A stretch of 64,000 bases of DNA from Streptomyces sp. LaPpAH-108. Lineage in GTDB: Bacteria; Actinomycetota; Actinomycetes; Streptomycetales; Streptomycetaceae. The notes beneath the pieces are model-generated. The model was not told the DNA's origin, ran no database searches, and was given only the letters and a program-made list of their open reading frames with translations. Shown here piece after piece: positions 27,051-49,024 of this stretch. Position 1 is the stretch's first letter. The number at the start of each line of letters is the position of its first letter. The stretch covers positions 186,001 through 250,000 of the forward strand of contig NZ_KB891997.1 of NCBI RefSeq assembly GCF_000373625.1, written 5' to 3'. The translations under genes were made by a program, and so were the position numbers.

Positions 27051-29906
27051 TCACGCGGGGCGGATCACGCGGTGGATCGCGGCCTCGCCCGCGCCGTAGA
27101 TCGACTCCTCGCGGATGAGGGCGCCGGGGCCGGGGGCGTGGATCATCGTGCCGTTGCCGACGTAGAGGCCCACGTGCCGGTCGTCCTCGAAGAACAGGAC
27201 GAGGTCACCGGGCTGGATCGCGGCCAGCGTCACCGGGCTGCCCCCGAGCGCCTGCTCCGCCGCACCGCGCGGCAGCGCGACCCCGGCCGCCCGCCACGCG
27301 TTCTGCGTCAGGCTCGAGCAGTCGTACGAGTCTGGCCCGGTCGCCCCCCAGACACACGGCCTCCCGAGCTGCGCCCGCGCGAACGCGATGGCCTTGGCGG
27401 CGCGGACCGCGTGCGCGGATTCGCTGGCCGCGGGGGTGGCGGGTGCGGCGGTGGGGAAGCCGCCGGTCTGCTGAGCGGGCGGGGCTGCGGGGGCGGGGGG
27501 CTGCTGGGGGTAGGCGGGGGGTGTGGCTGCGGTTGCGGCTGTCGGGGGCGTGGTGGGGACGGGGGGCTGCTGGGGCTGGGGTGCGGCGGCCTGCGGGGCC
27601 GGGGCGGGAGCGGGTTGGGGGGCGGCGGCCTGGGCTGGGGCCTGGGCGGCCGGGAACGTGAACGAACCCGTCTGGTACGCGGCGGCGGGGTAGGCGCCGG
27701 GCGCCTGGGCGGGCGGGGGTGTCGCGGGGGCGGCCATCTGCGGGGGTGCCGTGTCAACTGCGGTCATCGGGGCCGCACTTGTGGCCTGGTAGGGGTTTGC
27801 GCCGCTGGGCTGGGCGGCAGGGAAGGCGCCGGGAGCGGGGGTCGGGAACTGGCCCGTTGCTCCCGCCTGAAGCATCCCCGGGTCAACGGGCGGTGCGGCA
27901 GCCGTACTTACCGCCTGGAACGAACCGGTGCCGTCTTGCTGGGGCACCCCGGGGGCAGCGGTGGGGAAGGCTCCCGTGTTCGCGGCCTGCGCCGCGCCGC
28001 TGTCGGCTGCCGGGTATGCCCCGGTGGCGCCCTGCTGGGGTGCGGGGGCGGCCATCGCCGGGAATGTTCCGGTGTTGCCCGCCTGGGGGGTCGCGGCTCC
28101 GGCCGCCGGGTATGTACCTGTGCCGTTCTGCTGGGGTATCCCGGAGGCAGCGGTGGGGAAGGCTCCCGTGTTCTGGGCCTGCGCCGGGCCGGGGTTGGTC
28201 GCCGAGTATGCCCCGGTGGCGCCCTGCTGGGGTGCGGCGGCGGCCATCGCCGGGAGCGTTCCGGTGTTGCCCTGCTGGGGAGTTGCGGCTCCGGCCGCCG
28301 GGTACGTACCCGTGCCGTTCTGCTGGGGCACGCCGGGGGCGGCCCCCGGGAAAGCCCCCGTGCTCGCGGCCTGCATGGCACCGGTGTCGGCCGTCGGGTA
28401 CTGGGGCGCGGCGGCGCCAACGCCCGGGAAGGTTCCCGCGCTTGGGGCCTGCGGGGAACCGGCGTCCGGTGCCGGGTACGCACCCGCAGCGCCCTGCTGG
28501 GGCGCGGTGGTGCCAACTCCGGGGAAGGACCCGGTGTCGGCCGCCGGGTACGCCCCCGTGCCCCCCTGCTGGGACATCGCCGCGCCGACTCCCGGGAAGG
28601 ACCCGGTGTTCGCGGCCTGCGGTGCGCCCGCTGCGGCCCCCGGGAACGTACCCGTGTTCCCCGCCTGAGCCGTCGCCGGATCGACCACCGGGAACGCGCC
28701 CGTGCCACCGGCTTGGAGCATCCCGGGGTCGACCGCCGGGAACGCGCCCGTGCCACCGGCCTGGAGTACTCCCGGGTCAACCGCCGGGAAAGCACCCGTA
28801 CTTGCCGCCGGGAACGCGCCGGTGTCCCCGCCGGGGAACGCCCCCGGGCCGCCGGGAGCCGCCGCAGGCTGCGGAGTCGGGGGGAAGTACGCGAGCGAAC
28901 CCGTGTCCGTCACCGCGTCCGGGATGGCCGCGTACGCCGCCCAGGTACCGGCGCTGGTGTCGGAGAGGGGCGCGGCGGCCGGGAGCGTCGCCGCCCACTG
29001 CTGGGGCTGCTGCCACTGACCCGTGGCCTGGGACTGGCCCCCGGGCTGCGACTGGGCCTGGGCGGCCTGGGCCGGAGGCTGCGCGCGCTGGACCGGTGGC
29101 TGCGCGCGCTGGACCGGTGGCTGCGCGGGCTGCGCGGACGGCGTCGTCGGCGGTACCGGGTGCCGAGTCAGCAGCTGGTTCGCGGAGGCCAGCTTGTCCT
29201 GGTACTCCGACTTGGCCTCGGTGCCGTTCGGCGCGGCGGGCAGCCCGCTGGACGCGCGGACCGCGGCCTCCTGGGCGACGGCCGGGGCCGGACCGGCGGG
29301 CGGCGCGGCGAGGGCGGCACCGGCGGCGGGCGCGGCGTACCCCATCGGCTCCGGCGGCCCCGCCGTCATGGCGGGCAGCGGGATCAGACCGCTCGTCTCG
29401 GTCATGCCGGGACCGGCGAAGCCCGGCGGGGTCTGAGCCGGGAAAGCGCCCTGCGCGGGCGGGAGTTGCGGCGCGGCGGGAGTCGGCCCGGCCTCCAGGG
29501 CCGCCGGGGGCCGCGCGCCCGGGAGGGCCGCCGAGGGACCGCCGCCACCCGTCAGCTCGGCAGGCGCGCGCTGCCCGGAGGGCCCGGCGCCGAGCGCGGG
29601 CGGGGCGGGGGCGGTGAGTTCGGGGGCGTAGTCGGTACGGCCGCCCGAGGTGATCTCCGGCATCCGGTCCGGCGGCAGCGCGGCGGGAACCGTCGGGCCC
29701 AGCTTGGCGCGGGCCACGTCGAACCACTGCTGCGCGAGCGCGTCCAGGGCCGGGTCGGAGCCGCCCCGCTGCTTGGCCAGCGGTACGCCTCTACGGGTGG
29801 CCGCCGCCATCGCACGGGTGGCGTTGAAGTTCCCGGTGTCGTTCTCGGCCCGGGCGTAGAGGGAGTCGATCCGCTGCCGCACCTCTTCGGGGTTCTCCGA
29901 TGCCAT
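27051..29906 (-). CDS. NlpC/P60 (C40) cell-wall peptidase with long Pro/Gly/Ala/Gln repeat region
   Basis: 951 residues. An N-terminal charged helical segment (1-85, NPEEVRQRIDSLYARAENDTGNFNATRAM) and a Pro/Ala-rich stretch (90-350) lead into about twenty 16-residue repeats (about 362-694) of the form TG-aromatic-P with PQQ or QAGN ends. A further Pro/Gln linker follows, and the C-terminal NlpC/P60 domain (830-951) has Cys863 in DSYDCSSL, His911 in DDRHVGLY and His923. The family cleaves peptidoglycan stem peptides. No signal peptide or membrane helix is visible, which is odd for a wall hydrolase. The ATG at 29906 follows GGAAGGAG. The repeat DNA is a 48-base tandem array with a 192-base higher-order duplication. 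Confidence 0.9.
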   Translation of the reverse strand: MASENPEEVRQRIDSLYARAENDTGNFNATRAMAAATRRGVPLAKQRGGSDPALDALAQQWFDVARAKLGPTVPAALPPDRMPEITSGGRTDYAPELTAPAPPALGAGPSGQRAPAELTGGGGPSAALPGARPPAALEAGPTPAAPQLPPAQGAFPAQTPPGFAGPGMTETSGLIPLPAMTAGPPEPMGYAAPAAGAALAAPPAGPAPAVAQEAAVRASSGLPAAPNGTEAKSEYQDKLASANQLLTRHPVPPTTPSAQPAQPPVQRAQPPVQRAQPPAQAAQAQSQPGGQSQATGQWQQPQQWAATLPAAAPLSDTSAGTWAAYAAIPDAVTDTGSLAYFPPTPQPAAAPGGPGAFPGGDTGAFPAASTGAFPAVDPGVLQAGGTGAFPAVDPGMLQAGGTGAFPVVDPATAQAGNTGTFPGAAAGAPQAANTGSFPGVGAAMSQQGGTGAYPAADTGSFPGVGTTAPQQGAAGAYPAPDAGSPQAPSAGTFPGVGAAAPQYPTADTGAMQAASTGAFPGAAPGVPQQNGTGTYPAAGAATPQQGNTGTLPAMAAAAPQQGATGAYSATNPGPAQAQNTGAFPTAASGIPQQNGTGTYPAAGAATPQAGNTGTFPAMAAPAPQQGATGAYPAADSGAAQAANTGAFPTAAPGVPQQDGTGSFQAVSTAAAPPVDPGMLQAGATGQFPTPAPGAFPAAQPSGANPYQATSAAPMTAVDTAPPQMAAPATPPPAQAPGAYPAAAYQTGSFTFPAAQAPAQAAAPQPAPAPAPQAAAPQPQQPPVPTTPPTAATAATPPAYPQQPPAPAAPPAQQTGGFPTAAPATPAASESAHAVRAAKAIAFARAQLGRPCVWGATGPDSYDCSSLTQNAWRAAGVALPRGAAEQALGGSPVTLAAIQPGDLVLFFEDDRHVGLYVGNGTMIHAPGPGALIREESIYGAGEAAIHRVIRPA
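27825..28823 (-). repeat. 48-base tandem repeats coding 16-residue units
   Basis: Roughly twenty units inside the NlpC/P60 gene, each coding T-G-A/T/S-F/Y-P plus about 11 residues. Within it, 28170-28361 and 27978-28169 are two 192-base blocks of four units each, with the same order of unit types and near-identical sequence. Confidence 0.85.
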
Positions 29907-33176: not shown

Positions 33177-33635
33177 GTGCCTACCTTGCTGATCGTCCAT
33201 CACACCCCCTCGCCGAACTGCCAGGAACTGTTCGAGGCCGTGCTCTCCGGCGCCGAGACCCCCGAGATCGAGGGCGTCCGCGTCGTACGCCGCGCCGCCC
33301 TCGCCGCCACCGCCTCCGACGTGCTGGCGGCCGACGGCTACCTCCTCGGCACCCCCGCCAACCTCGGCTACCTGTCCGGCGCCCTCAAGCACTTCTTCGA
33401 CCAGGTCTACTACCCCTGCCTGGACGCGACCCGGGGCCGTCCCTTCGGCGCCTGGGTCCACGGCGGCAGCGACGTGACCGGCGCCCTGCGCGCACTCGAC
33501 GCCCTCACCACCGGCCTGGGCTGGCGCCGCGTCGCCGAGACCGTGACCGTCACCGGCACCCCCGCGAAGACCGACACGGAGGCGTGCTGGGAGCTGGGCG
33601 CCACCGTGGCCGCCTCCCTGTCCGCCGAGGTCTGA
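33177..33635 (+). CDS. Flavodoxin-like NAD(P)H-dependent reductase
   Basis: 152 residues. The FMN phosphate-binding loop is near LIVHHTPSPNCQELFEAVLSG, and GTPANLGYLSGALKHFFDQVYYP is the flavodoxin_2/WrbA-type segment that contacts the isoalloxazine ring. GAWVHGGSDVTGALRALDAL follows. Likely an FMN reductase or quinone reductase; partner unknown. The GTG at 33177 is the best start by homology, with no strong ribosome site. It reads in the same direction as the fusion gene 308 bases downstream. Confidence 0.8.
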   Translation: MPTLLIVHHTPSPNCQELFEAVLSGAETPEIEGVRVVRRAALAATASDVLAADGYLLGTPANLGYLSGALKHFFDQVYYPCLDATRGRPFGAWVHGGSDVTGALRALDALTTGLGWRRVAETVTVTGTPAKTDTEACWELGATVAASLSAEV

Positions 33636-33943: not shown

Positions 33944-36070
33944 ATGCGAGCGGACGGCCACGCACCCGGACGGCCCGCCAAGGGCGGACAGCACGACGAC
34001 GGACGCGAGAGCGCGGAACTGCTGCGGCGGGCCGCACGCGACGTGCTCGACGCCGCCGAGGGCATACGCGCGGTGGCCGCGCGCACCACGGCCGCGCTCT
34101 CCGCGCCCACCCCCTCGGCGCCGCGCCGCCGCCGTACCCGCCTCTCTCCGGCCGCCCGCGCCGCGCTCCTGCGGGCCCTGACCGACCGCCGGGGCCTCGG
34201 CTCCCCACCCGCCCGCGATGCCCGGGGCCTCGCTCGCGTGCTCGGCGCGGGGGCCTCGGCCCTCGGCGGCGAGAACCTGGCCGCCAAGGTGGCCGTCACC
34301 GCGCTGCGGCTGCGCACCGCCGCCCTGCTCACCGGCCACCCCGAACTCGCCCGCGAACCGGGCGTGCGCAGGCTCCGCCGCGCCCTCACCGCCCACCGTG
34401 ACCGGGACGCCGTCCGCGCCCTGCGCGCCCTGTTCCGCGACCGGGACGCCCAGCGCTCCCTGGCCGGACTCACCGCCCTGATGGCCGAACTGCTGCCCGT
34501 GCGCGCCCTGTTGGACGCCGAACCGGAGGACCGCGCGGGCGACGCGGAGGGCGGACCGGCGAGCGGGCCCGGCGCCGCGGCGGCCGAGGGCACCGTCCTC
34601 ACCGACCAGGAACGGCAGACCATCGCCACCGAGGGCTCCTTCCTCGGCTTCCTGCGCAACATCGAGACGCTGTCCTGCGCCGGACGCGTCCTCGTGCAGA
34701 ACGTACGCGGCCCCGACGGCGTCGTCCGCTACGTCGTCCAGGCCCCCGGCACCGCCCCCGGCCGCCCCCGCGACGACGCGCCGCCCGACGTGCTCGGCGC
34801 CTGGCACGAGCAGTTCACCCCCGACTCGCCGTACACCCGGGCCCTGTTGCCCGCCGTCGGGGACCACGGCATCCCGCGCGGCGCCGACCTCGCGCTGATC
34901 GGCCACGGCGAGGGCGGCACCGCGCTGCTCAACCTCGCCCAGGACCCCGAGTTCTGCGCCACCTACCGGGTCACCCATGTGATCGCCGTCGGCTCCCCGC
35001 CCCACCGGGGCAAACCCGCCGACCCGCGCACCTGGGTCGCCCGCGTCACCGACGAACACGACATCGTGCCCGCCCCCGAGGGCCGGGCCAGTGCCGCCGC
35101 CGACACCCACCCCCACCGCTACGAGGCCGAATTCGCCGGTACGGCACGGGAATTCCCCCGCTCCCACACGCTGCGCGGATACCTGGAGCACCTGCGCACC
35201 ACCGCCCCCGCCGTACGCGAGGACATCGACCGCGCGCTCGCGCCGTACCGAGGGCCCGTCGTGCGCACCCAGGCGTACCGGCTGAAGAACCGCGCCCACC
35301 CGCCCGACGGCCACCCCTTCCTCACCCTGCCCACCACCTCCCTCGCCACCACCCGGGGCCCGGTCTCGATGCCGGTGCGCTACCACGACTCCTCCTCGGC
35401 CCACCTGTGCTTCCCGGCCGACGCCGAGGCCGTACGCGCCCTGCTGCCCCACGTCGCCTGGATGCGGCCGAGCACACCGGCGCGGCGCGCGCTCGCGGTG
35501 CTGTCCCTGTACGAACACCGCAGCTCCACCATCGGCCCGTACACCGAGATCGTCCTGTCGGTGCTGGTCGACGACCTGTGGCGGCCCCGCCCCCTCGACC
35601 TCGCCACTGATCTGCTGCGCCGCGCCGACCTGCGCCGCACCGGCCGGTACGTCCTCTCGCTCGCCGTCACCAGCGAGGAGGCCCAGGTCGTCGCGCGGGA
35701 GATCTGGGGCCTGCCCGCACTGCGCGCAGCCGCCGAAGCGGACTTGACGGATCGTCAACTCCGGTTCGCGGCGCCGGACATCGGCGTCACCGTCGAAGGG
35801 CGCCTCGGCCCGGGCATCCGCTGCCCCGAGGCCGACTGGGTCCTCTACGGCAGGCGCGGCGAGAGCACCGTCCGCACCCTCGTCCGCACCAGCGGACGCC
35901 CCCGGCTGCACCTCGGGACGGGTGTGCGGCTGCACCTGGACACCTCCGCCGCCGAACCCATGTCCGGGCAGCTGCGCAAGCTCGGCGCCGACGGCGCGCG
36001 GCCCCTGTTCGTGCTGTCCTGCCCGCAGTCCATGGTCCACCGCAGCGCGGGGGCGGTGCTGCCCCGCTGA
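33944..36070 (+). CDS. Fusion of alpha/beta-hydrolase-like and acetoacetate-decarboxylase-like domains
   Basis: 708 residues, ATG with GGGAG upstream. Residues 20-190 are helical, Arg/Ala/Leu-rich and unrecognised. Residues 240-430 resemble an alpha/beta hydrolase: LALIGHGEGGTALLNLA is the nucleophile elbow, but the expected Ser is Gly322 (GHGEGG), while a plausible acid (VTDEHDIVP) and a His in SHTLRGYLEHL remain. Residues 470-708 match the acetoacetate decarboxylase fold (HLCFPADAEAVRALLP, GPYTEIVLSVLV, VVAREIWGLP), but the usual Lys pair after that motif is Ala-Leu (592-593). The protein may be a scaffold or binder rather than an enzyme. It is followed 61 bases later by a small unknown gene and then a ketoacyl synthase. 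Confidence 0.75.
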   Translation: MRADGHAPGRPAKGGQHDDGRESAELLRRAARDVLDAAEGIRAVAARTTAALSAPTPSAPRRRRTRLSPAARAALLRALTDRRGLGSPPARDARGLARVLGAGASALGGENLAAKVAVTALRLRTAALLTGHPELAREPGVRRLRRALTAHRDRDAVRALRALFRDRDAQRSLAGLTALMAELLPVRALLDAEPEDRAGDAEGGPASGPGAAAAEGTVLTDQERQTIATEGSFLGFLRNIETLSCAGRVLVQNVRGPDGVVRYVVQAPGTAPGRPRDDAPPDVLGAWHEQFTPDSPYTRALLPAVGDHGIPRGADLALIGHGEGGTALLNLAQDPEFCATYRVTHVIAVGSPPHRGKPADPRTWVARVTDEHDIVPAPEGRASAAADTHPHRYEAEFAGTAREFPRSHTLRGYLEHLRTTAPAVREDIDRALAPYRGPVVRTQAYRLKNRAHPPDGHPFLTLPTTSLATTRGPVSMPVRYHDSSSAHLCFPADAEAVRALLPHVAWMRPSTPARRALAVLSLYEHRSSTIGPYTEIVLSVLVDDLWRPRPLDLATDLLRRADLRRTGRYVLSLAVTSEEAQVVAREIWGLPALRAAAEADLTDRQLRFAAPDIGVTVEGRLGPGIRCPEADWVLYGRRGESTVRTLVRTSGRPRLHLGTGVRLHLDTSAAEPMSGQLRKLGADGARPLFVLSCPQSMVHRSAGAVLPR

Positions 36071-36131: not shown

Positions 36132-36500
36132 ATGGTGACCGAGTCCCCCCGTACGACGCCACGCGCCGCCGAACTCCTCGACCGGGCGGCCGGGTTGCGC
36201 GCCGACGCCGAGCTGATGGACGGCTACGCCCGCCGTCTCGTCGCCACCGCCCAAGCCCTGTCCGCCTGTTCCGCCGCCCCCGCGCACACCCGCCCCGCCC
36301 TGACCCGGCAGGCGGCGGCCTGCCGCCGGGCGGCCGGTCAACTCCGGGCGGCGGCAGCCGTGTTGCTCACCGCGCACCTGAGAACGGACGCCGTACCGAG
36401 CGGCCGTACGGGACGGTCGAGCGGACGCGCGGGACGGTCGAGCGGCCTGGCCGGACGGCCGCCCGCCGCCGGACCCCGGTCGTACGACGGCATCGCCTGA
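36132..36500 (+). CDS. Small helical protein of unknown function
   Basis: 122 residues, GGGAGC 6 bases before the ATG. Residues 8-85 are Ala/Arg/Leu-rich helices (RAAELLDRAAGLRADAELMDGYARRLVATAQALSA and RQAAACRRAAGQLRAAAAVLL). The tail (90-115) is a simple repeat of GR-T/A-GRSSG. Its closeness to the fusion gene suggests they are co-transcribed; the helical part resembles the N-terminal helical region of that fusion in composition only. Confidence 0.65.
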   Translation: MVTESPRTTPRAAELLDRAAGLRADAELMDGYARRLVATAQALSACSAAPAHTRPALTRQAAACRRAAGQLRAAAAVLLTAHLRTDAVPSGRTGRSSGRAGRSSGLAGRPPAAGPRSYDGIA

Positions 36501-36663
36501 CCGCCCTCGCCTGAGTGTCCTCGCCCGAGCGGCACCGCCCGCGCCGCGTTCGCGCATACGGGTGGTAGCGGGCGCGGTCCTCGGCCGAACGAGTGTGGCG
36601 CGGCGGCCCGGGCGCCACGGGCCCCCATAATCACGGCACATGCAGCTCGTGAAATCAGGTGAC

Positions 36664-37893
36664 ATGAACCGGCGTCCCCCCGTGGCCGTCACCGGACTCG
36701 GACTGGTCACGCCGGCCGGAGTCGGCAGGGACGCCGCCTGGGAGGGCCTGTGCGCCGGGCTCTCCACGGCGACCGCCGACCCGGGCCTGGACGGGCTGCC
36801 GGTGGCGTTCTCCTGCCGGGTGCCCGACCTCGATGCGGCCGGACTGCTCGGCCACCGGCTCAGCCGCCGCCTCGACCGCTTCACCACCTTCGCGCTGCTC
36901 GCCGCGCGCGAGGCCGTGGCCGACGCCCGGACCGGCCCCGACGGCTGGGAGGCCGCCCGGGTCGGCGTCGTCATGGGAGTCGGCACCGGCTCCATGCAGG
37001 GCTGGCAGGCCGAGTTCGACCGGCTCGCGGACCAGGTGCCCGACCGGGTCTCGCCGCTCGCACTGCCACGCAGCGTGCCCAACATGGCCGCCGCCGAGAT
37101 CGCGCTCGACCTCGGCGTCACCGGCCCCAACATGGTCGTCAGCACCGCCTGCGCCTCCGGCACCAGCGCCATCGGGCTCGCCCGCGACTGGCTGCTCTCC
37201 GGCGCCTGCGACCTGGTCCTGGCCGGGGGCAGCGAATCGGCCCGACTCCCCATGACCGCCGCCTGTTTCGCCCAGATGCGCGCGCTGTCCCGCCGCACCG
37301 GGGCCCCGCACGAGGCGTCCCGCCCCTTCGACCGCGACCGCGACGGCTTCGTCCTCGGCGAGGGCGCCGCCGTCCTCGTCCTGGAGCGCACCGAGGACGC
37401 CCGCGCCCGGGGCAGCCGCCCCGCCGCCTACGTCTCCGGCTTCGGCGCCTCCTGCGACGCCCACCACTTCACCGCCCCGCACCCCGGCGGCGACGGCGCC
37501 GCCCGCGCCATCCGGGCCGCCCTCACGGACGCCGGACTCGCCCCCGAGGACGTCGACCACGTCAACGCCCACGGCACCTCCACCCCCCAGGGCGACCTCG
37601 CCGAACACAACGCCCTGCGCCAGGTCTTCCGGCAGCCGCCGCCCGTCACCGCCGTCAAGGGCACCATCGGCCACGCCATCGGCGGCGCGGGCGCCATCGA
37701 GGCCGCCTGCACCGTCCTGACCCTGCGCCACCAGCTCATCCCGCCGACCGCCAATCTGCACACCCAGGACCCGGCGATCGACCTGGACGTCGTCGCCAAG
37801 GCGCCCCGCCCGCAGGAGATGCGCGCGGCCATCAGCAGCTCGTTCGGCTTCGGCGGCCAGAACGCGGTGCTGGCGTTCACGGCCGCCGACTGA
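36664..37893 (+). CDS. Beta-ketoacyl-ACP synthase II-type enzyme
   Basis: 409 residues. The catalytic triad is complete: Cys163 in STACASGTSA, His303 in NAHGTSTPQGD and His337 in GTIGHAIGGAGA, with Lys332. SSSFGFGGQNAVL closes the protein. It performs decarboxylative condensation of malonyl-ACP with an acyl-ACP. Being outside a fas operon, with no acyl carrier protein next to it, it is more likely a specialised or auxiliary synthase than primary FabF. The ATG at 36664 is preceded by AGGTG at a short distance; an ATG at 36640 would add 8 residues. Confidence 0.9.
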   Translation: MNRRPPVAVTGLGLVTPAGVGRDAAWEGLCAGLSTATADPGLDGLPVAFSCRVPDLDAAGLLGHRLSRRLDRFTTFALLAAREAVADARTGPDGWEAARVGVVMGVGTGSMQGWQAEFDRLADQVPDRVSPLALPRSVPNMAAAEIALDLGVTGPNMVVSTACASGTSAIGLARDWLLSGACDLVLAGGSESARLPMTAACFAQMRALSRRTGAPHEASRPFDRDRDGFVLGEGAAVLVLERTEDARARGSRPAAYVSGFGASCDAHHFTAPHPGGDGAARAIRAALTDAGLAPEDVDHVNAHGTSTPQGDLAEHNALRQVFRQPPPVTAVKGTIGHAIGGAGAIEAACTVLTLRHQLIPPTANLHTQDPAIDLDVVAKAPRPQEMRAAISSSFGFGGQNAVLAFTAAD

Positions 37894-38031: not shown

Positions 38032-38553
38032 ATGTCCTTCCGCAACCGCATGACACCGCTGACCACCGTCGCCCTCGGCGCGGGCCTCGTCCTGGCCGCC
38101 GTGACCCCGGCCCTGGCGGGCACGGCCCGTACGACGCCCCACACCACCACCGCCCCTGCCGCCCGCCCCGCCGCGGTCACGAGCGTCCAGGGCGACCCCC
38201 GCAACGTCACCCAGCGCGTGGCCGACTTCTACGGCGCCTACATCGACGCGATCTGGGACGGCGAGGACCCGGCGAGTGCCGCCGACGCCAAGGCCCTGCG
38301 GAACTTCTACCTCTCGGCCCCGGCCCGCAAGAAGGTCGCCGCCTGGGAGCGCAAGAACCACGCCGACGGCATCCTCTTCGCCCAGAACGTCCCCGTGAAG
38401 TGGAAGGCCGCCTACTCCGGCTCGGGCATGGGCCACGCCACCACCCGCGTCACGCTGACCTGGAGCGACGGCAAGCACCCCGAGGTCACCCGGATCGACG
38501 TCCAGTCGGACCTCACGTCCCGCAAGATCACCGACCTGAAGCAGGTGCGCTGA
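38032..38553 (+). CDS. Small secreted protein of unknown function
   Basis: 173 residues. The signal peptide (about 1-31, ends ALAGTA) is followed by a Thr/Ala/Pro linker and a domain (60-173) with [33 protein letters not shown] and [18 protein letters not shown]. The latter looks like an NTF2- or cystatin-like alpha+beta fold. No catalytic motif is seen. The GTG at 38020 is a second possible start. Its last 26 bases overlap the 3' end of the convergent nhaA-dsbA gene. Confidence 0.75.
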
Positions 38554-40423
38554 CGGCGGCACGCTCCCGGGCGCTGCGCACCGCCTCGGCGAGCCCGCTC
38601 AGATCGTAGGAACCGCGGTACAGCCGCCCGTTGACGAAGAAGGTCGGTGTCCCGGCGACCCCGCTGAGGTCGGCCGACTCGACGTCCTCGGCCACCCGGG
38701 CGGCTCCCGCGTGGGCGCGCAGGTCCCGTTCGAAGCGGGCGGTGTCCAGGCCCAGCTCCTCGGCGTAGCGCAGCAGGTCCGAGATGCGCAGGGCGCCCTG
38801 GTGGGTGAGGAGGACGTCGTGCATCGGCCAGAAGGCGTCCTGCCGGTCCGCCGCCTCCGTGGCCTCGGCGGCCAGCTGGGCATGGGGATGCACGTCGTGC
38901 AGCGGCAGATGGCGCCATACGTAACTGACGTCGTCGACGTCCGCGAGCAGATCGCGCAGGGCGGGCTCGGCCTGGCCGCAGTACGGGCACTCGAAGTCGC
39001 CGTACTCCACCACGGTGACCGGGGCGTCGAGCGGGCCGCGCACATGGTCGCGGTCCCGGTCCACGGGCACGGCGAGGTCGGTGATGCCCTGGGCCGTCCC
39101 CAGCAGCGCCCGCGAGCGGCCGAGGCGCGGCAGTGTGTGGACGAGACCGGTGACCACCCAGGTCAGCACGAGGGAGACCGGCACGGTGGCCAGGACGCCG
39201 ACCTTGGCCTGGGTCAGCTCCTCGCCGTCGAAGGCGAGCGTGGCGATCAGCAGGGAGACGGTGAAGCCGACCCCGGCCGCCGTGCCGCCCGCGAGGACCG
39301 AACCCCAGCCGACCTGCGGGCGCAGCCGCCCGCGGCTCACCCGGGTGGTGACGAACTCGGCCACGAAGATGCCCAGCGGCTTGCCCACGACATAGGCGAC
39401 CAGGATGCCCAGGGTGACCGGTGAGCCGAGGCTGTGGACGAGCCCGGACCAGCTGACGTGGACACCGGCGTTGGCCAGGGCGAACAGGGGCACGACGACA
39501 TAGCTGGTCCACGGGTGGAACAGCTGCTGGAGCCGCCCGTTCGGCGAGATCGCGGCGGCCAGGCCCTGGCGCAGATTCCGCTCCAGCTCAGGAGTCGGCT
39601 GCTCCCGGAAGAGCCGGAACAGGCCGGTGGCCCGCTCCAGTTCGCTGCGCGAGGCCGGGTAGGCGTAGGTGAGCAGCCCGAACGCCAGACCGGTGACGAC
39701 GGGATCGATGCCCGACTCCAGCAGCGCCACCCAGACACCGGCCGCCGCCACCGCGTACACCGCGCCGTTGCGGACGCCGACCCGGCGCAGGAACAGCGCC
39801 ACCGCGAAGACGGCCGCGGCGGCGAGCAGCGCGGGCCAGGAGATGCTGCCGCTGTAGGCGAAGGCGATGACCGCGAGGGCCACGAAGTCGTCGACCACGG
39901 ACACGGTCAGCAGGAAGGTGCGCAGCGCCGACGGCAGCCGCCTGCCCAGCAGGGCCAGCGTCCCGAGGGCGAACGCGGTGTCCGTGGACATCGCCGCGCC
40001 CCACCCGTACCCGGCGCCGTCCCGGCCCGCGAAGGCCAGGAAGATCAGGACGGGGACGAGCATCCCGGTCAGGCCCGCGGCCAGGGGCAGCGCGACCCGG
40101 CGGCGCTCGCGCAGCTCGCCCATGTCGAACTCGCGGCGCGCCTCCAGGCCGACCACGAAGAAGAACAGCGCCATCAGACCGCTGTTGATCCAGCCGCGCA
40201 GGTCCAGACCGAGCCCGGCGGAGCCCGCGCTGACCGACAGCCGCGTCGTCCAGGCGTCCTCGTACACACCCGGCGCGAGAGCGGCCCACACCAGCGCGCC
40301 GAGCACGGCCACCACCAGCACGAGCGCGCTGCCGGTCTCGGTGCGCAGGAAGTCCCGCAGCGGGGTGTGCAGGGATCTCGAACAGGCGGTCTGCCCGGTC
40401 CCCGAAGAGGCGGCGCCGGTCAT
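38528..40423 (-). CDS. nhaA: Na+/H+ antiporter NhaA fused to a DsbA-like thioredoxin domain
   Basis: 631 residues. The NhaA part (about 20-400) has eleven or twelve helices, with [10 protein letters not shown] and the paired Asp motif [14 protein letters not shown] needed for ion binding. A DsbA/thioredoxin domain (about 430-631) carries [15 protein letters not shown] with a CPYC active site and [15 protein letters not shown] with the cis-Pro. Such fusions are known in actinobacteria and suggest redox control of the antiporter or an attached oxidoreductase. The ATG at 40423 overlaps the phosphatase stop as ATGA, so the two genes are translationally coupled. Confidence 0.92.
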
Positions 40424-43096: not shown

Positions 43097-43126
43097 GCGC
43101 GAGTCAGCGCGAGTCGGCGCGCGTCA
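43097..43126. repeat. Three tandem 10-base repeats
   Basis: GCGCGAGTCA, GCGCGAGTCG, GCGCGCGTCA in a row, the last overlapping the stop codon of the P450 gene. Confidence 0.6.
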
Positions 43127-44350
43127 GCCGTTCAGGCGCACCGGCAGCTCGAAGAGGTCGTTCTGGGTGACCACCGGCTTGTTGCGCAGGTCGGCGGCCG
43201 GGACCGCGAGGTCGAGGTGGGGGAAGCGGGCGTAGAGCGCGGGCAGGGCGACCCCCGCCTCCAGGCGGGAGAGCGCCGCGCCGGGGCACACGTGCGGGCC
43301 GTGGCCGAAGGAGATGTGCCGGTTCTTCGTCTCGCGGGTGATGTCGAACTCCCCGGCGCTCGGCCCGTGCGCCTCCTCGTCGCGGCCGATCGCGCCGTAC
43401 GACACGATCAGCGCGTCGCCCGCCGGGATGACCTTGTCGCCGACCGGCACGTCCTCGGTGGCGAAGCGGATCAGCACGTGCGAGGTAGGGGTGGACCAGC
43501 GCAGGGTCTCCTCGACGACCGCGGACCAGTCGGCCTCGCCGGACAGGACCAGGGCGCGCTGGTCGGGGTGGGTGGAGAGGTTGACGACCGCGTTGACGAT
43601 CAGCGAGATCGTGGTCTCGTGACCGGCGGCCACCATCAGCTGGAGGGTGGAGACGATCTCCTCGTCGGTGAGATGGTCGCCGTCCGCCGAGGCGCGGATC
43701 AGCGCGCTGGTGAGGTCGTCGCCCGGCTCGGCGCGTTTCGCCGCCACGGTGGCCGCCATGATCCTGGCCAGCTCGGTGAGGGTCGCGAGGACCTCCGCGG
43801 GCGGGGTCTGGGTGGAGAAGAACTTCTCGAACAGCACCTTCAGGCGCGGGAGTTCGGCGGTGTCGATGCCCATGAGGTCGGCGACGACGTACATCGGCAG
43901 CGGGTAGGCGAACGCGGCCTTGAGGTCCACCGTCCCGCCGTCGGCGGGCAGCGCGTCCAGGAGGCCCTGGGTCAGCTTCTCGATGCGCTCGCGCATCAGC
44001 TCCACCCGGCGCGGGGTGAGCGCCTGCGCGACCAGCGTGCGCATCCTGCGGTGGTCGGCGCCGTCCACGGTGAGCATGGAGCGGCCCGGGTTGGCCAGGC
44101 CGATCAGCGGCCAGTCGGCCGGGATCTCACCGCGCCGCCAGGCGCTCCACACGTTGATGTCCTTCACCAGACGCGGGTCGGTGAGCAGCGCCTTGGCCTC
44201 GGCGTGGCGCGTGACCGCCCACACCGGCACACCGCCGGGCAGCTCCACGGCGGCGAGCGGACCGGCCGCGCGCAGGGCCGCGCTCTCGCCGTCCAGGTCG
44301 GTGACGAAGGGATCGAGGGCGATCGGGGACGTCGCGGTACCGGTCGTCAT
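43124..44350 (-). CDS. Cytochrome P450 of the conservon (CYP154-like), cvnF position
   Basis: 408 residues with all P450 hallmarks: I-helix LMVAAGHETT, K-helix EETLRW (normal EXXR), and heme loop SFGHGPHVCPGAALSRLE with the axial Cys. GGGAGG lies 9 bases before the ATG at 44350. It is the last gene of the cvn operon, 101 bases after the first P450. In other conservons a normal P450 (CYP154 class) follows an EXXR-less CYP157; this pair fits. Substrate unknown; electrons would come from ferredoxin and a reductase such as FprA. Confidence 0.9.
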   Translation of the reverse strand: MTTGTATSPIALDPFVTDLDGESAALRAAGPLAAVELPGGVPVWAVTRHAEAKALLTDPRLVKDINVWSAWRRGEIPADWPLIGLANPGRSMLTVDGADHRRMRTLVAQALTPRRVELMRERIEKLTQGLLDALPADGGTVDLKAAFAYPLPMYVVADLMGIDTAELPRLKVLFEKFFSTQTPPAEVLATLTELARIMAATVAAKRAEPGDDLTSALIRASADGDHLTDEEIVSTLQLMVAAGHETTISLIVNAVVNLSTHPDQRALVLSGEADWSAVVEETLRWSTPTSHVLIRFATEDVPVGDKVIPAGDALIVSYGAIGRDEEAHGPSAGEFDITRETKNRHISFGHGPHVCPGAALSRLEAGVALPALYARFPHLDLAVPAADLRNKPVVTQNDLFELPVRLNG

Positions 44351-44451
44351 CGTGACATGCCTCCCAGGCAGGGGTCGGAGTACTGCGCGTCGCGCCGGGG
44401 GCGGCCCCGGACCCGGCCGGAGGGGTCTCCTGCGGCCGGGGTGACGCGAGA

Positions 44452-45657
44452 TCAGAGGGCGGGTACGGGCGTGAACCGGACGGGCAGCTCGGTCAGCCCG
44501 CGCAGCCAGGGCGAGGGCCTGCGGGTCAGGGACTCGGCGGGCACCGCCAGATCGATGTCCGGCAGCCGGTCGAGGACCACCTCGATCCCGGTGCGCGCGA
44601 TCACCTCGGCGATCTCCTGCGCGGGGAACGGGCAGCGGTGCTCGCCGTGCCCGAAGGAGAAGTGCGCGTTGTTGCCACCGGTCAGCGCGGAGGCGTCGGT
44701 GCGCACCTGGGGATCGGAGTTGGCGCCCTGGAGACCGAGCAGCAGCAGATCGCCCGCCCGGATGCGCCGCCCGCCCAGATGGGTGTCGCGGGCCGCCCAG
44801 CGCCCGGCCACGTTCTGGGTAGGGGTGTCCTCCCACAGCACCTCGTTCATCGCCTCGGCGACGCTGTTGCGGCCACCGAACAGCGAGGCGGCGAACCGCT
44901 CGTCGGTCAGCATCAGCCGCAGCGAGTTGCCGATCCAGTCGGCGGTCGGCTGGTGGCCCGCCGCCATCATGACCATCAGGTCCTGGACCAGCTCCTCCTC
45001 GGTGAACCCGCTGCCGTCGGCGAGCATGTGCGACACCACGTCGTCGGCGGGCTCCTTGGCCCGCTCGGCCACCAACCGGGCCATGGAGGACGCCAGATGG
45101 GCCTGGCCCGCGAGCGCCCGCTCCCGGCCGTCGATCATGTCGTTGAGCGCGGTGACGAGCCCCGGACCGTCCTCGTCCGGGAAGCCGTACAGATGCGCCA
45201 GCACCCGTACGGGCAGCAGCCCGGCGTACTGGCCCACCAGGTCCGCCTCGCCCGAGGAGCACAGCGCGTCGATCAGCTCGTCCGCGAACCGCTCGGCCTG
45301 GCCCCGCAGTTCGAAGGGGTCCACCGACTCGAGCGCGTTGCTGACCATCGCGGCGCGCTGGCGGTGCCGTTCGCCGACGGTGTAGAGGATCGACGGCTGG
45401 CGGTGGCCGATCATCGGGAGCAGCGGCCAGTCGTCCGGCACGTTCTCCCACTGGTTCCACAGCTCGGAGTCGCGGCTGAACAGCACCGGATCGCCGGTGA
45501 CCTGATGCAGCTCGCGGTAGCCGAGGACCAGCCACGCGGGCAGGTCCCCGTCGAGCAGCACCGGCACCACGGAGCCGTGGTCGCGGCGCATCTCCCGGTA
45601 CAGACGGGCCGGTTCGGTCTGGAACCGGGGTCCGCCGAGGGGCACGGCGTCGGCCAT
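44452..45657 (-). CDS. cvnE: CYP157-type cytochrome P450 lacking the EXXR motif, cvnE position
   Basis: 401 residues. The heme loop SFGHGEHRCPFPAQ has the axial Cys342, and the I-helix reads MAAGHQPTADWIGN. In the K-helix the invariant Glu-x-x-Arg is replaced by E272-V-L-W275. Loss of this Arg is the defining feature of the CYP157 family, known from Streptomyces conservons. The ATG at 45657 overlaps the cvnD stop by one base (TGATG); a GTG at 45660 (GTGATG) is the alternative. Tight coupling to cvnD argues for a role in the conservon rather than in general metabolism. Confidence 0.88.
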   Translation of the reverse strand: MADAVPLGGPRFQTEPARLYREMRRDHGSVVPVLLDGDLPAWLVLGYRELHQVTGDPVLFSRDSELWNQWENVPDDWPLLPMIGHRQPSILYTVGERHRQRAAMVSNALESVDPFELRGQAERFADELIDALCSSGEADLVGQYAGLLPVRVLAHLYGFPDEDGPGLVTALNDMIDGRERALAGQAHLASSMARLVAERAKEPADDVVSHMLADGSGFTEEELVQDLMVMMAAGHQPTADWIGNSLRLMLTDERFAASLFGGRNSVAEAMNEVLWEDTPTQNVAGRWAARDTHLGGRRIRAGDLLLLGLQGANSDPQVRTDASALTGGNNAHFSFGHGEHRCPFPAQEIAEVIARTGIEVVLDRLPDIDLAVPAESLTRRPSPWLRGLTELPVRFTPVPAL

Positions 45658-46277
45658 CACACCACCTCCGTGGTCGTCAACGGCCCTGCGGCCACGGCGT
45701 ACTGACTGCGCACATGCTCGACCAGGGTGATCAGTACCCGCTTGGCCGACTCGCGGTCACGGGCGTCGCAGTCGATCAGCGGGATCTCCGGATCGAGGTC
45801 CAGGGCGGCACGCACCTCCTCGGAGGCGCGCACCGGGCCGCCGAAGTCGTTGCAGGCCACGATGAACGGCGTGCCGTGGTGTTCCAGACGGTCGATGGCG
45901 TACCAGGAGTCGTCGATGCGCCGGGTGTCCACCAGGACCACCGCGCCCAGGGTGCCGGAGAACAGCCGGTCCCACAGGAACCAGAACCGCTCCTGGCCCG
46001 GCGCCCCGAACAGGTACAGCACATTGCGCGCGTCCAGGGTGATGCGGCCGAAGTCGAAGGCGACGGTCGTCGCGGACTTGCCGCGCACCTGCTCGATGTC
46101 GTCCACCGACGCACCGGCCTGCGTCATCGTCTCCTCGGTGTTGAGGGGACGGATCTCGCTGACCGAGCGGACCAGGGTGGTCTTGCCGACGCCGAAGCCG
46201 CCCACGACGACGATCTTCAGACCGTTGTCGGCGGAGGCACCCAACGGGGTGCGCGCGTCAGAGATTGCGGAGTCCAA
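45657..46277 (-). CDS. cvnD: Conservon Ras-like GTPase
   Basis: 206 residues. Walker A GGFGVGKTT (28-36), switch region with ATTVAFDFGRI, FGAPGQERFWFLWDRLF as the DxxG-equivalent, VACNDFGG as an NKxD-like motif. The protein is a bacterial MglA/ATP-GTP-binding family member that interacts with the roadblock and DUF742 partners of the same operon to relay signals from the sensor ATPase. It overlaps cvnC by 20 bases. Confidence 0.93.
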   Translation of the reverse strand: MDSAISDARTPLGASADNGLKIVVVGGFGVGKTTLVRSVSEIRPLNTEETMTQAGASVDDIEQVRGKSATTVAFDFGRITLDARNVLYLFGAPGQERFWFLWDRLFSGTLGAVVLVDTRRIDDSWYAIDRLEHHGTPFIVACNDFGGPVRASEEVRAALDLDPEIPLIDCDARDRESAKRVLITLVEHVRSQYAVAAGPLTTTEVV

Positions 46278-46605
46278 CGAGCACCTGCTCCAGGATGTCG
46301 GGGTCGGTGATGGCCGGCCGGTGCGGATGGCGTGCGCTGACGCGCCCCTGGGCCAGCAGGTCGCCGAGGAGCACCTTGGTGATGCCGACGGGCAGCCGCA
46401 GCTCGGCGGCGATCTCGACGACCGAGGCGGGGAACTCGGTCATCCGCAGGATCGCCACGTGCTCCGACTGCATACCGGGCGTGGGCGCCGACTCGGCGAC
46501 GACCAGCGTGACCAGGTCGAACGGGTTGTCGGGAGCGGGGCCCACACGTCCCTGCGTGATCGTGTAGAGACGGTCCGGGGCGTCGTCCCTGCCGGGACGG
46601 CTCAT
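46258..46605 (-). CDS. cvnC: Conservon DUF742 protein
   Basis: 115 residues. DUF742 signature: RLYTITQGRVGP, FDLVTLVVA, EHVAILRMTEFPASVVEIAAELRLPVGITKVLLGDLLAQGRV, a winged-helix-like fold. Usually the third component between the roadblock protein and the GTPase. Its ATG overlaps the cvnB stop by four bases. Confidence 0.93.
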   Translation of the reverse strand: MSRPGRDDAPDRLYTITQGRVGPAPDNPFDLVTLVVAESAPTPGMQSEHVAILRMTEFPASVVEIAAELRLPVGITKVLLGDLLAQGRVSARHPHRPAITDPDILEQVLVGLRNL

Positions 46606-47009
46606 GAGGAACGGGGCGGAGCGGTCAGGTGCTCACCGATCTGCTCCACGAGTTCGCTCATGGTGTGGCCCACGACCCCGGGGTCCGCGTCGTCGCTGGT
46701 GATCACCGCCAGATGGGCTCCCGAGCCCGCCTCGACGATGAACAGCACACCGCCGTAGAACTCGGTCATCGCCGAGCGCACCCCGCCGCTGCCGTCCCCG
46801 AACTCCACGGACGCGCCCTGCGACAGGGACTGGATGCCCGCGGCGATCGCGGCGAGCTGGTCGGCCTGGTCGACGGACAGCTCGGGCGAGCGGCACAGCT
46901 TCAGCCCGTCCCGGGACAGCACGAGCGCGTGCTTCGCGCCCGGCGTCCTCTCCAGCAGCCCCTCCAGGAGCCAGGTCAGCTTGTCGTCGGCGGTGGTCGG
47001 GCCGGTCAT
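46602..47009 (-). CDS. cvnB: Conservon roadblock/LC7 domain protein
   Basis: 135 residues. Roadblock/LC7 fold: LTWLLEGLLERTPGAKHALVLSRDGLKLCRSPELSVDQADQLAAIAAGIQSLSQGAS, then YGGVLFIVEAGSGAHLAVITSD. Thought to be a GTPase-activating or scaffold partner of CvnD. The ATG at 47009 overlaps the cvnA stop as ATGA. Confidence 0.93.
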   Translation of the reverse strand: MTGPTTADDKLTWLLEGLLERTPGAKHALVLSRDGLKLCRSPELSVDQADQLAAIAAGIQSLSQGASVEFGDGSGGVRSAMTEFYGGVLFIVEAGSGAHLAVITSDDADPGVVGHTMSELVEQIGEHLTAPPRSS

Positions 47010-49024
47010 GAAGTGGGGCCTTCCGGGTGCGTGGGGTGGTGCTCGGACGAGGAGGAAGAGGCGGCGGGTGAGGCGCCGCCGGGGGATTCGGTGCCGGGGG
47101 CCGCCGCGTCGGCGTGTCCGGCCGCGCGGGCGTCGCCGGGGGCGTCCGCCGGGTGGCCGTGGGCCGGGCTGCCGCCGTTGCCGTTGTCGCCGGGGGAGTC
47201 GTCCGCGGTGGCGCGGGCGCGGGTACGGCGGGTGGCGCCGCCGGTGTGGTCGTGCGCGGGGGTGCGCTCCGCGCGGGCGGGGGGTGCGGCGTCCGCTGTC
47301 GCGGGGGCGTCGGCGGTGTGCGGTGCGGAATCGGCCGGGGGCGTGTCGGACGTGCCCTGCGGGAGGGTGCCGGGCGCTCCGGCGCGGGGCCCGGCGGCCG
47401 TACGGGCCGCGCGGTCGGCGGCCGTGGTCACGCCGTCGGCCTGCGGGAGGGTGCCGGGTGCTCCGGGGTGGAGCCGGGAGGCCGTTCGGGCCGCGTGGTC
47501 GGCGGCCGTGGTCACGTTGTCGCCCTGCGGGCGGGTTCCGGCCGGGGGCTCCTGCGGGGTGCCGTCGCGGCGGGAGCCGTCCGATACGGCGCCGGTGGCG
47601 CGGTCCGCCCCGGTGCCGGTGGCCGGTCCTGCGGAGCCCGACGGCTCGGCCGAGGTGTCCTTCCCCGGACCGCCGGACGGCCGCACGGCCTGGCGGAAAC
47701 TCGTGAAGCGCGCCGCCCGCGTCTTCGCCTCGGCCGGGTCGGGGCCCGGAGCCGGGGCCGGGGTCGCGGCGCGGGAGGCGCGGGAGCGTTCGGCCTCCGC
47801 CAGGGTGCGGCCCCGGCGGCGGCGCGGCAGGTTGTCCGACGCCTCCGGCTCGGGCTCGACGACCCCCGGAAGTGCCGACGGAGGCACCCGCTCCGGCGGG
47901 ACCGGGCTCGTCAGGATGTCCTGCGGGACCAGCATCAGCACACCCGTACCGCCGCGTGCCGAGGGCCGGAAGGAGACCTTGAGGCCGTGCTTGTGGGCCA
48001 GCCGGCCCACCACCGCGAGCCCAAGGCGCGTACCCGTGAGGCCGCCGAGCCCGGACACGTCACCGGTGACCGCACGCTCCGCGCGCCGCAGCTGCACATC
48101 GCCCATCACCAGACCGCTGTCCTCCACGGACACGATGACCCCGGCCGGGACCTCCTCCACGTACACATGGACCTCGGCGGTCGGCGGCGAGAAGTTCGTG
48201 GCGTTGTCCAGGAGTTCGGCCAGCGCGTGCATCACGCCCTCGGCCGCGTGCCCGGCGACGGCGGCGTCGCTGGTGGAGTGCACCCGCACCCGCCGGTAGC
48301 CGCCGATACGCCCCATCGCGCCGCGCAGGATGGACTCCATCGCGATCGGCCGCGCCCAACGGCGCCCCGAACGGGCCCCGGTGAGGACGGCGATGGAGTC
48401 GGCGAGGCGGCCCGCCTGGGCCGTGCGGTGGTCGAGGTGGAGCAGATCGGTGAGCACGTCCTCGTCGGTGTGCCGGTCCTCCATCGCCCGCAGGTCGGCC
48501 AGCGTGGCGGTGGCGAGGGCCTGCATGCGGGCCGCCGCGTTGGAGGTCGCCGAGACCGCCGCCGCCCGCTCGCGCCGGGCCTCCGCCAACTCCTCGCGCA
48601 CCGACTTGAGTTCGGAGCGCAGCTCGTCGAGCGAACCGGCCCCCTCCCGCTCCAGCCGCTGCCGCTCCTCCTTGAACTCCACCCGCTGGGCGGCGAGTTC
48701 GTTGATGAGCCGCTGCTGCTCCCGGCGTGCCTCCTCGGTCTGCCGGTCGCGCTGCTGGGTGAGCCGGGCGATGTCCTCGCTCGCGCCCTCCAGCCGGCGG
48801 TGCAGCAGACGCCCGGCGTGGACGGCGTACGCGGTGCTCGTGGCGGCGGCGGTGAGCAGGACCGTGGCCGCGGTCCCGCACCACAGCAGCGCGTTGCGCG
48901 CGGGGTCCGGCGCGATCGACACCGCCAGGGCGAGCGCGAGCGCCGAGAGGGCGGCGGTCGCGGCGAGCGTGGCGGCGAGCACGCGGAGGGGGGAACGGTC
49001 GCCTGATGGCGTGGGCGCGGTCAT
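47006..49024 (-). CDS. cvnA: Conservon sensor histidine-kinase-like ATPase
   Basis: 672 residues. Two N-terminal membrane helices (about 14-34 and 45-65) without a large outside domain, a coiled coil (75-155, RLTQQRDRQTEEARREQQRL), a phosphoacceptor-like segment (LLHLDHRTAQAGRL) and a GHKL ATPase (about 210-350, ALAELLDNATNFSPP and GLAVVGRLAHKHGL). The last 300 residues are Pro/Ala/Gly-rich and probably unstructured, including a two-copy repeat around TTAADHAARTAS and TTAADRAARTAA. First gene of the operon; promoter candidate at 49140-49169. Confidence 0.92.
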   Translation of the reverse strand: MTAPTPSGDRSPLRVLAATLAATAALSALALALAVSIAPDPARNALLWCGTAATVLLTAAATSTAYAVHAGRLLHRRLEGASEDIARLTQQRDRQTEEARREQQRLINELAAQRVEFKEERQRLEREGAGSLDELRSELKSVREELAEARRERAAAVSATSNAAARMQALATATLADLRAMEDRHTDEDVLTDLLHLDHRTAQAGRLADSIAVLTGARSGRRWARPIAMESILRGAMGRIGGYRRVRVHSTSDAAVAGHAAEGVMHALAELLDNATNFSPPTAEVHVYVEEVPAGVIVSVEDSGLVMGDVQLRRAERAVTGDVSGLGGLTGTRLGLAVVGRLAHKHGLKVSFRPSARGGTGVLMLVPQDILTSPVPPERVPPSALPGVVEPEPEASDNLPRRRRGRTLAEAERSRASRAATPAPAPGPDPAEAKTRAARFTSFRQAVRPSGGPGKDTSAEPSGSAGPATGTGADRATGAVSDGSRRDGTPQEPPAGTRPQGDNVTTAADHAARTASRLHPGAPGTLPQADGVTTAADRAARTAAGPRAGAPGTLPQGTSDTPPADSAPHTADAPATADAAPPARAERTPAHDHTGGATRRTRARATADDSPGDNGNGGSPAHGHPADAPGDARAAGHADAAAPGTESPGGASPAASSSSSEHHPTHPEGPTS

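Follow-up and report, generated by a model that had tools for sequence, protein, structure and literature searches.

We analysed a window of 64,000 nucleotides from Streptomyces sp. LaPpAH-108, in which one gene encodes a protein that joins a helical N-terminal region, a lipase-like alpha/beta-hydrolase domain and a domain resembling acetoacetate decarboxylase (ADC). The features are listed in Table 1. A genome search found one copy of the fusion in this genome. An FMN-reductase-like gene lies upstream. A small helical gene and then a ketoacyl synthase lie downstream, as the initial annotation had stated. The two sites singled out there, positions 322 and 592-593, are correctly placed, since GHGEGG, the nucleophile elbow, begins at residue 320 and the decarboxylase motif EIWGLPAL at residue 586. 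Both key residues reported as lacking are indeed absent from the window protein, which reads GHGEGG at the elbow and WGLPAL at the site of the ADC lysine. By activity, we class the window protein with neither the serine hydrolases nor the decarboxylases, because it has lost a defining residue of each.

Table 1. Coordinates of the fused gene, its parts and its neighbours in the window
Feature	Position	Strand	Basis
FMN-reductase-like gene	33177..33635	+	Pfam FMN_red on L077 homologue; synteny
Fused gene, 708 aa (helical N-terminus, lipase-like and ADC-like)	33944..36070	+	single open frame
N-terminal helical region, residues 1-215	33944..34588	+	low-confidence model; region also in free-standing hydrolases
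Lipase-like alpha/beta-hydrolase domain, residues 216-450	34589..35293	+	Pfam of free-standing relative; weak domain model and fold comparison
Nucleophile elbow GHGEGG, residues 320-325	34901..34918	+	translation, alignment
Gly322, codon GGC	34907-34909	+	AGC at same site in Ser-type relatives
Asp373, aligned putative triad Asp	35060..35062	+	27/27 fused proteins
His408, aligned putative triad His	35165..35167	+	27/27 fused proteins
ADC-like domain, residues 451-708	35294..36067	+	PF06314 match; hhalign to Lys-bearing ADC-family proteins
EIWGLPAL, residues 586-593	35699..35722	+	alignment
Ala592 at Schiff-base lysine site	35717-35719	+	alignment; hhalign
Small helical protein, 122 aa, near-constant fusion partner, distantly WXG100-like, hairpin Trp absent	36132..36500	+	synteny
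FabF-like ketoacyl synthase	36640..37893	+	Pfam; sequence comparison with L077

The window protein matches no hydrolase model in Pfam, and a free-standing relative (L037:7582-8943) scores above the cut-offs of Abhydrolase_6, Abhydrolase_8 and Lipase_3. The full-length model, built from five sequences, reached a pLDDT of 38.8 and was set aside as evidence; it predicts the helices that had been claimed for the N-terminus, but in a poor model. The lipase-like domain was also modelled alone (pLDDT 62.6, pTM 0.70). Its fold matches are weak and for the most part lipases, thioesterases, esterases and lipase-like proteins (Z up to 6.6, with an rmsd of 4.4 over 150 residues), and Foldseek returned no match for it at E 0.001. 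In this domain model residue 322 is flanked by a strand and a helix, the position expected of a nucleophile elbow. Asp373 and His408 are invariant among the aligned fused proteins, and part of that stretch of the model is of low confidence.

The C-terminal half passes the PF06314 cut-off of 29.8 bits, with 38.4 bits for the whole window protein and 40.6 bits for the domain alone. Seven other fusions were scanned with the same model: those of L077, L034 and L083 also passed (30.5-32.0 bits), those of L085, L117, L138 and L140 missed the cut-off, and no ADC model matched L117, L138 or L140. Five ADC-family proteins of the window's genus that do bear the lysine were compared with it profile to profile (hhalign); the probability was 96.8 and the E 3e-10, and Ala592 was aligned opposite their lysine. 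By profile, the domain is thus placed within the ADC family. A PDB sequence search with the whole window protein found nothing, and the single match obtained with the ADC-domain profile (E 0.81) was dismissed as chance.

We further focused on the homologues that share the fusion. The same arrangement was found in 27 distinct proteins, window included, with both catalytic sites inspected; 23 come from the window's genus, two from family f3 and two from family f19. Duplicates were not counted: L004 was treated as the same locus as L076, and L006 and L009 as the same as L034. The fusion of G102 is split over two contig pieces. Within the genus, the ADC half is present in 16 of 323 genomes (E 1e-20). 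Fifteen of the fused proteins have Ser at the elbow and 12 have Gly, which was observed only inside the window's genus. In the 18 sequences whose codons were compared, Ser is encoded by AGC in nine and Gly by GGC in nine. None of the 12 Gly-type genes is interrupted within the sequence available (L005 begins at a contig end), and their proteins all retain Asp373 and His408. Lysine at the Schiff-base site, on the other side of the fusion, occurs in none of the 27 proteins, and no ADC-domain column has Lys in as many as five of them, apart from linker residue 448 (Lys in 15/27). Therefore, as far as the family has been sampled, the ADC half was without its Schiff-base lysine before the sampled lineages split. 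Compared across these sequences, the loss of the ADC lysine and that of the elbow serine differ in age.

The proposal of a two-domain pseudoenzyme consequently needs to be divided. It fits the window protein, where both residues are missing, but 15 of the 27 proteins have Ser with the aligned Asp and His, and a single ancient pseudoenzyme is not borne out, with the lysine missing family-wide and the elbow serine kept in many members. Homologues carrying the catalytic residue do exist in the case of Ser, by true divergence and not by a frameshift, whereas none carries the Lys.

The small helical gene is located after the fusion at 24 of the 26 loci with readable downstream sequence (L118 is cut by a contig end), and is missing from that place at L086 and L117. 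It was recognised by BLAST, and in L063, L138 and L140 by eye and position. A similar-looking helical gene of 92 residues was seen by eye at the far end of the L117 cluster. The window small protein has no Pfam match; those of two relatives score 16.8 and 14.3 bits with WXG100, below its cut-off of 27.3, and the tryptophan of this gene is absent in the window group. Within the window's genus, the ketoacyl synthase flanks the fusion at 8 of 11 Ser-type loci; at Gly-type loci it does so in 3 of 12 cases, and with this low count we rejected it as a strict fusion partner. Of the downstream genes whose joint conservation had been raised at the outset, the small gene is thus a near-constant partner and the ketoacyl synthase not a strict one. 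The ketoacyl synthase of the window is 90% identical to that of the cyclooxygenase-like cluster at L077, and was therefore probably retained from that same cluster. The FMN-reductase-like gene is the syntenic upstream neighbour at most loci of the genus and probably stands outside the pathway. Genes beyond the window were called with our own codon-usage script, whose starts may be off.

At eight Ser-type loci (L034, L077, L079, L083, L084, L085, L113 and L114), the neighbours of the fusion and its small helical gene include fatty-acid desaturases, a ketoacyl synthase, a P450 and an animal-type haem peroxidase; L034, L077 and L114 have an acyltransferase in addition. Pfam identities were taken from the L077 set. 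In the PDB, the L077 peroxidase matches prostaglandin G/H synthases best (E 3e-61, residues 10-503), with alpha-dioxygenases far behind (E 1e-12). In all seven cyclooxygenase-like proteins examined, the catalytic Tyr and the proximal haem His are kept (YRWH aligned with prostaglandin-synthase YHWH), and the distal haem His position is occupied by Asp; we take the corresponding cyclooxygenase sites to be Tyr385, His388 (proximal) and His207 (distal). The peroxidase activity of the cyclooxygenase-like protein is therefore doubtful. The P450 cysteine is present in 6 of 6 proteins examined.

In family f19 (L138 and L140), the P450, the cyclooxygenase-like gene, the fusion and the small gene are contiguous on one strand, and at L140 the gene ends of this four-gene unit overlap. 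In family f3 (L117 and L118), the cyclooxygenase-like gene, the P450 and the fusion lie amid PUFA-synthase-like genes. The L117 neighbours comprise a PfaD-family protein (TIGR02814, 613 bits, cut-off 449), PfaA- and PfaC-like pieces, a fatty-acyl-AMP ligase, a carrier protein and acyltransferases; the PfaA-like match to TIGR02813 is spread over two called pieces with 830 and 248 bits, the cut-off of 1010 being set for the whole protein. By our own gene calls, the start of the L117 fusion overlaps the stop of the PfaD-like gene by one base. A class-wide search with the cyclooxygenase-like protein found 12 places in 11 of 394 genomes. The fusion is present at three of these places (G757 C38, G822 and the already known G209) and in the examined flank of none of eight others, leaving out G871, a 3-kb contig.

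We then compared the elbow residue with the presence of the oxygenases. A whole-genome search with the cyclooxygenase-like protein covered 23 genomes, the 16 of the genus with the ADC half and seven found later; the test omits G757 and G822, which had been found via the cyclooxygenase-like gene, and the genomes of L005 and L007. The cyclooxygenase-like gene was detected in 12 of 13 Ser genomes vs 0 of 10 Gly genomes, and the genomes added after the pattern was noticed all fit (7/7). The exception is G003, whose L035 protein has Ser without a cyclooxygenase-like gene in the genome and falls within a group of Gly proteins in the tree (AU p 0.022, for a group chosen after viewing the tree). Fisher's test on the pairing gives 9.6e-6, a descriptive value only, as it ignores kinship; a kinship-aware count leaves two to three independent contrasts, none of them opposing and too few for significance. 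The first tree (18 fused proteins) forces at least two Gly-label changes on its starred branches, while the larger one (25) needs three such changes and its well-supported branches force only one; both trees included the alignment column of the trait itself. Because the trees disagree, we make no claim on the number of independent Ser losses. The P450 was likewise found in 0 of 10 Gly genomes (E 1e-60). This absence is weaker evidence, because the same search was positive in 10 of 25 genomes and also missed G003, G187, G334, G757 and G822. The last four are Ser genomes that carry the cyclooxygenase-like gene, and G334, G757 and G822 do own a related P450 near the fusion by BLAST.

Homologues of the helical and lipase-like parts also exist without the ADC domain. 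Such free-standing proteins were matched at 22 non-fused places, and 17 neighbourhoods were fetched and aligned; 12 of the 17 proteins are long, and 11 of these carry GHSxGG. Four loci (L037, L038, L039 and L048) adjoin an alpha-dioxygenase-like protein, a small gene and a P450, an FAD oxidase and a TPP enzyme also being present at three of these loci, and the best PDB match of the L037 alpha-dioxygenase-like protein is a fatty-acid alpha-oxidase (E 2e-111). Eight others (L040-L047) adjoin an acyltransferase and a protein read as P450-like (the one at L041 has no Pfam match), with a clustered carrier protein in six and a ketoacyl synthase in six; their elbow is GHSLGG, yet no peroxidase was called in the flank. 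L048 has GHGLGG and no aligned His despite its adjacent alpha-dioxygenase-like gene, and the five short paralogues (L049-L053) have degenerate elbows. The family therefore often accompanies fatty-acid oxygenation genes, and active-site loss has occurred elsewhere in it too. The idea that the serine tracks an oxygenase across the whole hydrolase family was rejected, as it fails at the free-standing L048 and L040-L047.

Since the Ser-type relatives lie mostly in cyclooxygenase-like clusters, the window appears to hold a disarmed leftover of a fatty-acid oxygenation pathway. We propose that its gene may be a hydrolase-dead, lipid-binding remnant of an actinobacterial oxylipin-type operon for fatty-acid oxygenation, a reading that we hold with about even confidence. 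In a complete operon, the lipase-like Ser-Asp-His domain would probably free or hand over an acyl substrate, the cyclooxygenase-like haem protein would add oxygen to the acyl chain, and the P450 would rearrange or further oxidise the oxygenated product. The Lys-less ADC-like barrel might then bind, isomerise or cyclise the oxo-acyl product without a Schiff base, the small helical protein being the putative partner of the fusion. In the window lineage, the cyclooxygenase-like and P450 genes are absent and the elbow Ser has changed to Gly, with which ester hydrolysis by the usual route should cease; purifying selection still maintains the protein, alongside the small gene and the ketoacyl synthase, most likely as a binder of a hydrophobic ligand. 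The residues, the gene linkage, the correlation and the selection described here can be read from the sequences, and we infer each enzymatic step, as well as the loss of the oxygenase genes rather than their original absence. Of the ligand-binding scaffold in an unknown pathway suggested by the initial annotation, the pathway is narrowed by gene linkage to fatty-acid oxygenation, and ligand binding stands as a presumed role.

Other explanations have to be weighed against this one. A sequencing error is excluded as the cause, since 12 of the 27 distinct fused proteins, encoded in different genomes, have Gly and none has Lys; there is practically no chance that an error or a local frameshift masks intact catalytic residues. 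A more serious objection is that, without the oxygenases, the fusion gene is functionless and merely awaiting loss. Omega (dN/dS) was estimated for the three pairs formed by the window gene and its two nearest relatives. It is 0.18-0.20 over the whole gene and 0.14-0.17 for the ADC half, simple pairwise estimates from high-GC genes that are best read relative to each other. These values argue against a dead gene, and the group looks constrained. Two more distant Gly pairs have a hydrolase-domain omega of 0.52 and 0.69 vs 0.22-0.28 in four Ser pairs, and therefore look relaxed, resembling decay. A relic is also consistent with Ser being missing where the cyclooxygenase-like gene is missing, and with a window-group small gene that is without its Trp; however, the Gly genes are all open over the stretch read with Asp373 and His408 kept, and with the low values of the window group we consider decay unlikely.

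The same retention of Asp and His in every Gly protein, the strong constraint in the window group and the replacement of Ser always by Gly would suit a repurposed catalyst, in which the His-Asp pair serves as general base for a reaction without serine, be it that of a cofactor-free oxygenase, a lyase or an isomerase. Some dioxygenases of the alpha/beta-hydrolase fold work serine-free by such general-base chemistry. The uniform Gly is weak evidence in this respect, because Ser to Gly needs one AGC-to-GGC step; moreover, the conservation of Asp and His may be structural, and repurposing seems to us quite improbable. The weak WXG100 and EspA/EspE-like scores of the small helical neighbours could also point to a type VII (WXG100) system, with the fusion as an exported or membrane-associated lipase-like protein and the small gene as its WXG partner. 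All such scores fall under the Pfam cut-offs, the scanned neighbours are mostly lipid enzymes and no secretion gene was noticed among them by eye, and we regard a type VII role as very improbable.

The proposed lipid-binding remnant shares features with several known systems. With lipases and acyl thioesterases (Abhydrolase_6/8, Lipase_3) it has in common the elbow modelled between strand and helix, the aligned Asp and His and relatives with GHSxGG, but it differs in the Gly at the nucleophile position, the large helical N-terminus and the C-terminal ADC-like domain. With the ADC family PF06314 it shares the profile, but the domain is without the Schiff-base lysine and is fused to a hydrolase. 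EDS1, PAD4 and SAG101, plant immune proteins in which a lipase-like fold serves as scaffold, are among the top fold matches (Z 6.0-6.3) and likewise have this fold beside a helical domain; the likeness is by fold alone, and a Z below 8 may mean merely a common arrangement. Prostaglandin-type routes use PLA2, cyclooxygenase and P450 isomerases, and lipase-like, cyclooxygenase-like and P450 proteins are likewise encoded together in the bacterial clusters.

In a 2015 review (PMC4420034), fungal linoleate diol synthases are described as peroxidase-P450 fusions, and bacterial cyclooxygenases as known from putative sequences only. Compared with the prostaglandin routes and the diol synthases, the bacterial genes are separate, an extra ADC-like domain and the small protein are present, and the distal haem His is Asp. 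According to two reports (PMC11719350, PMC13365329), the ADC-family member CLA-DC from Lactobacillus plantarum acts as an isomerase on the double bond of a 10-oxo fatty acid. The action of an ADC fold on oxo-fatty acids therefore has precedent, and the window fusion family would need a Lys-free route. Pfa clusters of Streptomyces are already known (Shulse and Allen 2011, PMC3098273), and the L117 cluster shares with them a PfaD-family protein and PfaA/PfaC-like pieces; the terms 'peroxidase', 'cyclooxygenase', 'cytochrome P450' and 'hydrolase' do not occur in the main text of that paper. None of the papers listed in searches of the open-access literature was, by its title or abstract, a description of this operon or fusion, most subscription papers being outside the scope.

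A broader suggestion, which is tentative and on balance doubtful, is that Actinobacteria hold a de novo prostanoid-like pathway fed by a PUFA synthase or desaturases, of which the window lineage lost production and kept the disarmed fusion, perhaps as an oxylipin receptor or sink. If this is true, the lipase-ADC fusion would release the polyunsaturated acyl chain and handle the oxo-product of a prostanoid-like route, in which the cyclooxygenase-like enzyme and the P450 would lead to an oxylipin. That oxylipin would probably be a signal or a secondary lipid, and the ligand of the window fusion would perhaps be made by neighbours. Bacterial cyclooxygenase-like genes gain a testable pathway and substrate from their linkage to the P450 and the lipase-ADC fusion, and in one family also to PUFA-synthase-like genes. 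Moreover, Ser with an oxygenase vs Gly without one makes the fused family a natural experiment in how an enzyme may turn into a pseudoenzyme upon the loss of its pathway.

Cyclooxygenase-like genes are also found elsewhere in the class (L139 and L141–L147), and the lipase–ADC fusion was not found in the flanks examined at these loci. In L142–L144, which share one genus code, the neighbourhood of this gene is largely common to all three. At L083, a terpene synthase (Pfam Terpene_syn_C_2) adjoins the cyclooxygenase-like/P450 pair.

Coordinates of the features described in the window and at loci in other genomes
Locus	Position	Strand	Feature
Window	27051-29906	-	NlpC/P60-like protein, 951 aa as called
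Window	38528-40423	-	NhaA-like Na+/H+ antiporter
Window	43124-48982	-	Streptomyces conservon-like gene run
L041	10260-11690		P450-like protein
L047	9288-10781		P450-like protein
L048	8298-9686	+	free-standing hydrolase homologue
L083	12986-14059		terpene synthase
L139	8722-10338		cyclooxygenase-like gene

Within the window, two P450-like genes share the conservon-like run, recognized only by eye, with a gene of small-GTPase type, a pair of short genes and one sensor kinase. The NhaA-like protein, likewise read by eye, appears to continue in frame into a DsbA/thioredoxin-like domain at its C-terminus. GxFPA-type repeats form a long low-complexity region in the NlpC/P60-like protein, whose counterpart in the near relative L076 is 855 aa.

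The P450-like proteins of L041 and L047, identified by eye, each have a helical hairpin of WXG-like type at their end and so look like fusions with the small helical gene; that of L041 had no match in the Pfam scan.

Among free-standing hydrolase homologues, the one at L048 has the elbow GHGLGG and lacks the aligned His, and an alpha-dioxygenase-like gene adjoins it. Judged by sequence, this is a separate disarming, at odds with the rule in the fused family that elbow Ser accompanies the cyclooxygenase-like gene and Gly its absence. A third paralogue group (L049–L053), adjoined by a gluconate-kinase-like gene (read by eye), consists of short proteins whose degenerate elbows, such as GRGPGG and GHRLGA, mark another active-site loss.
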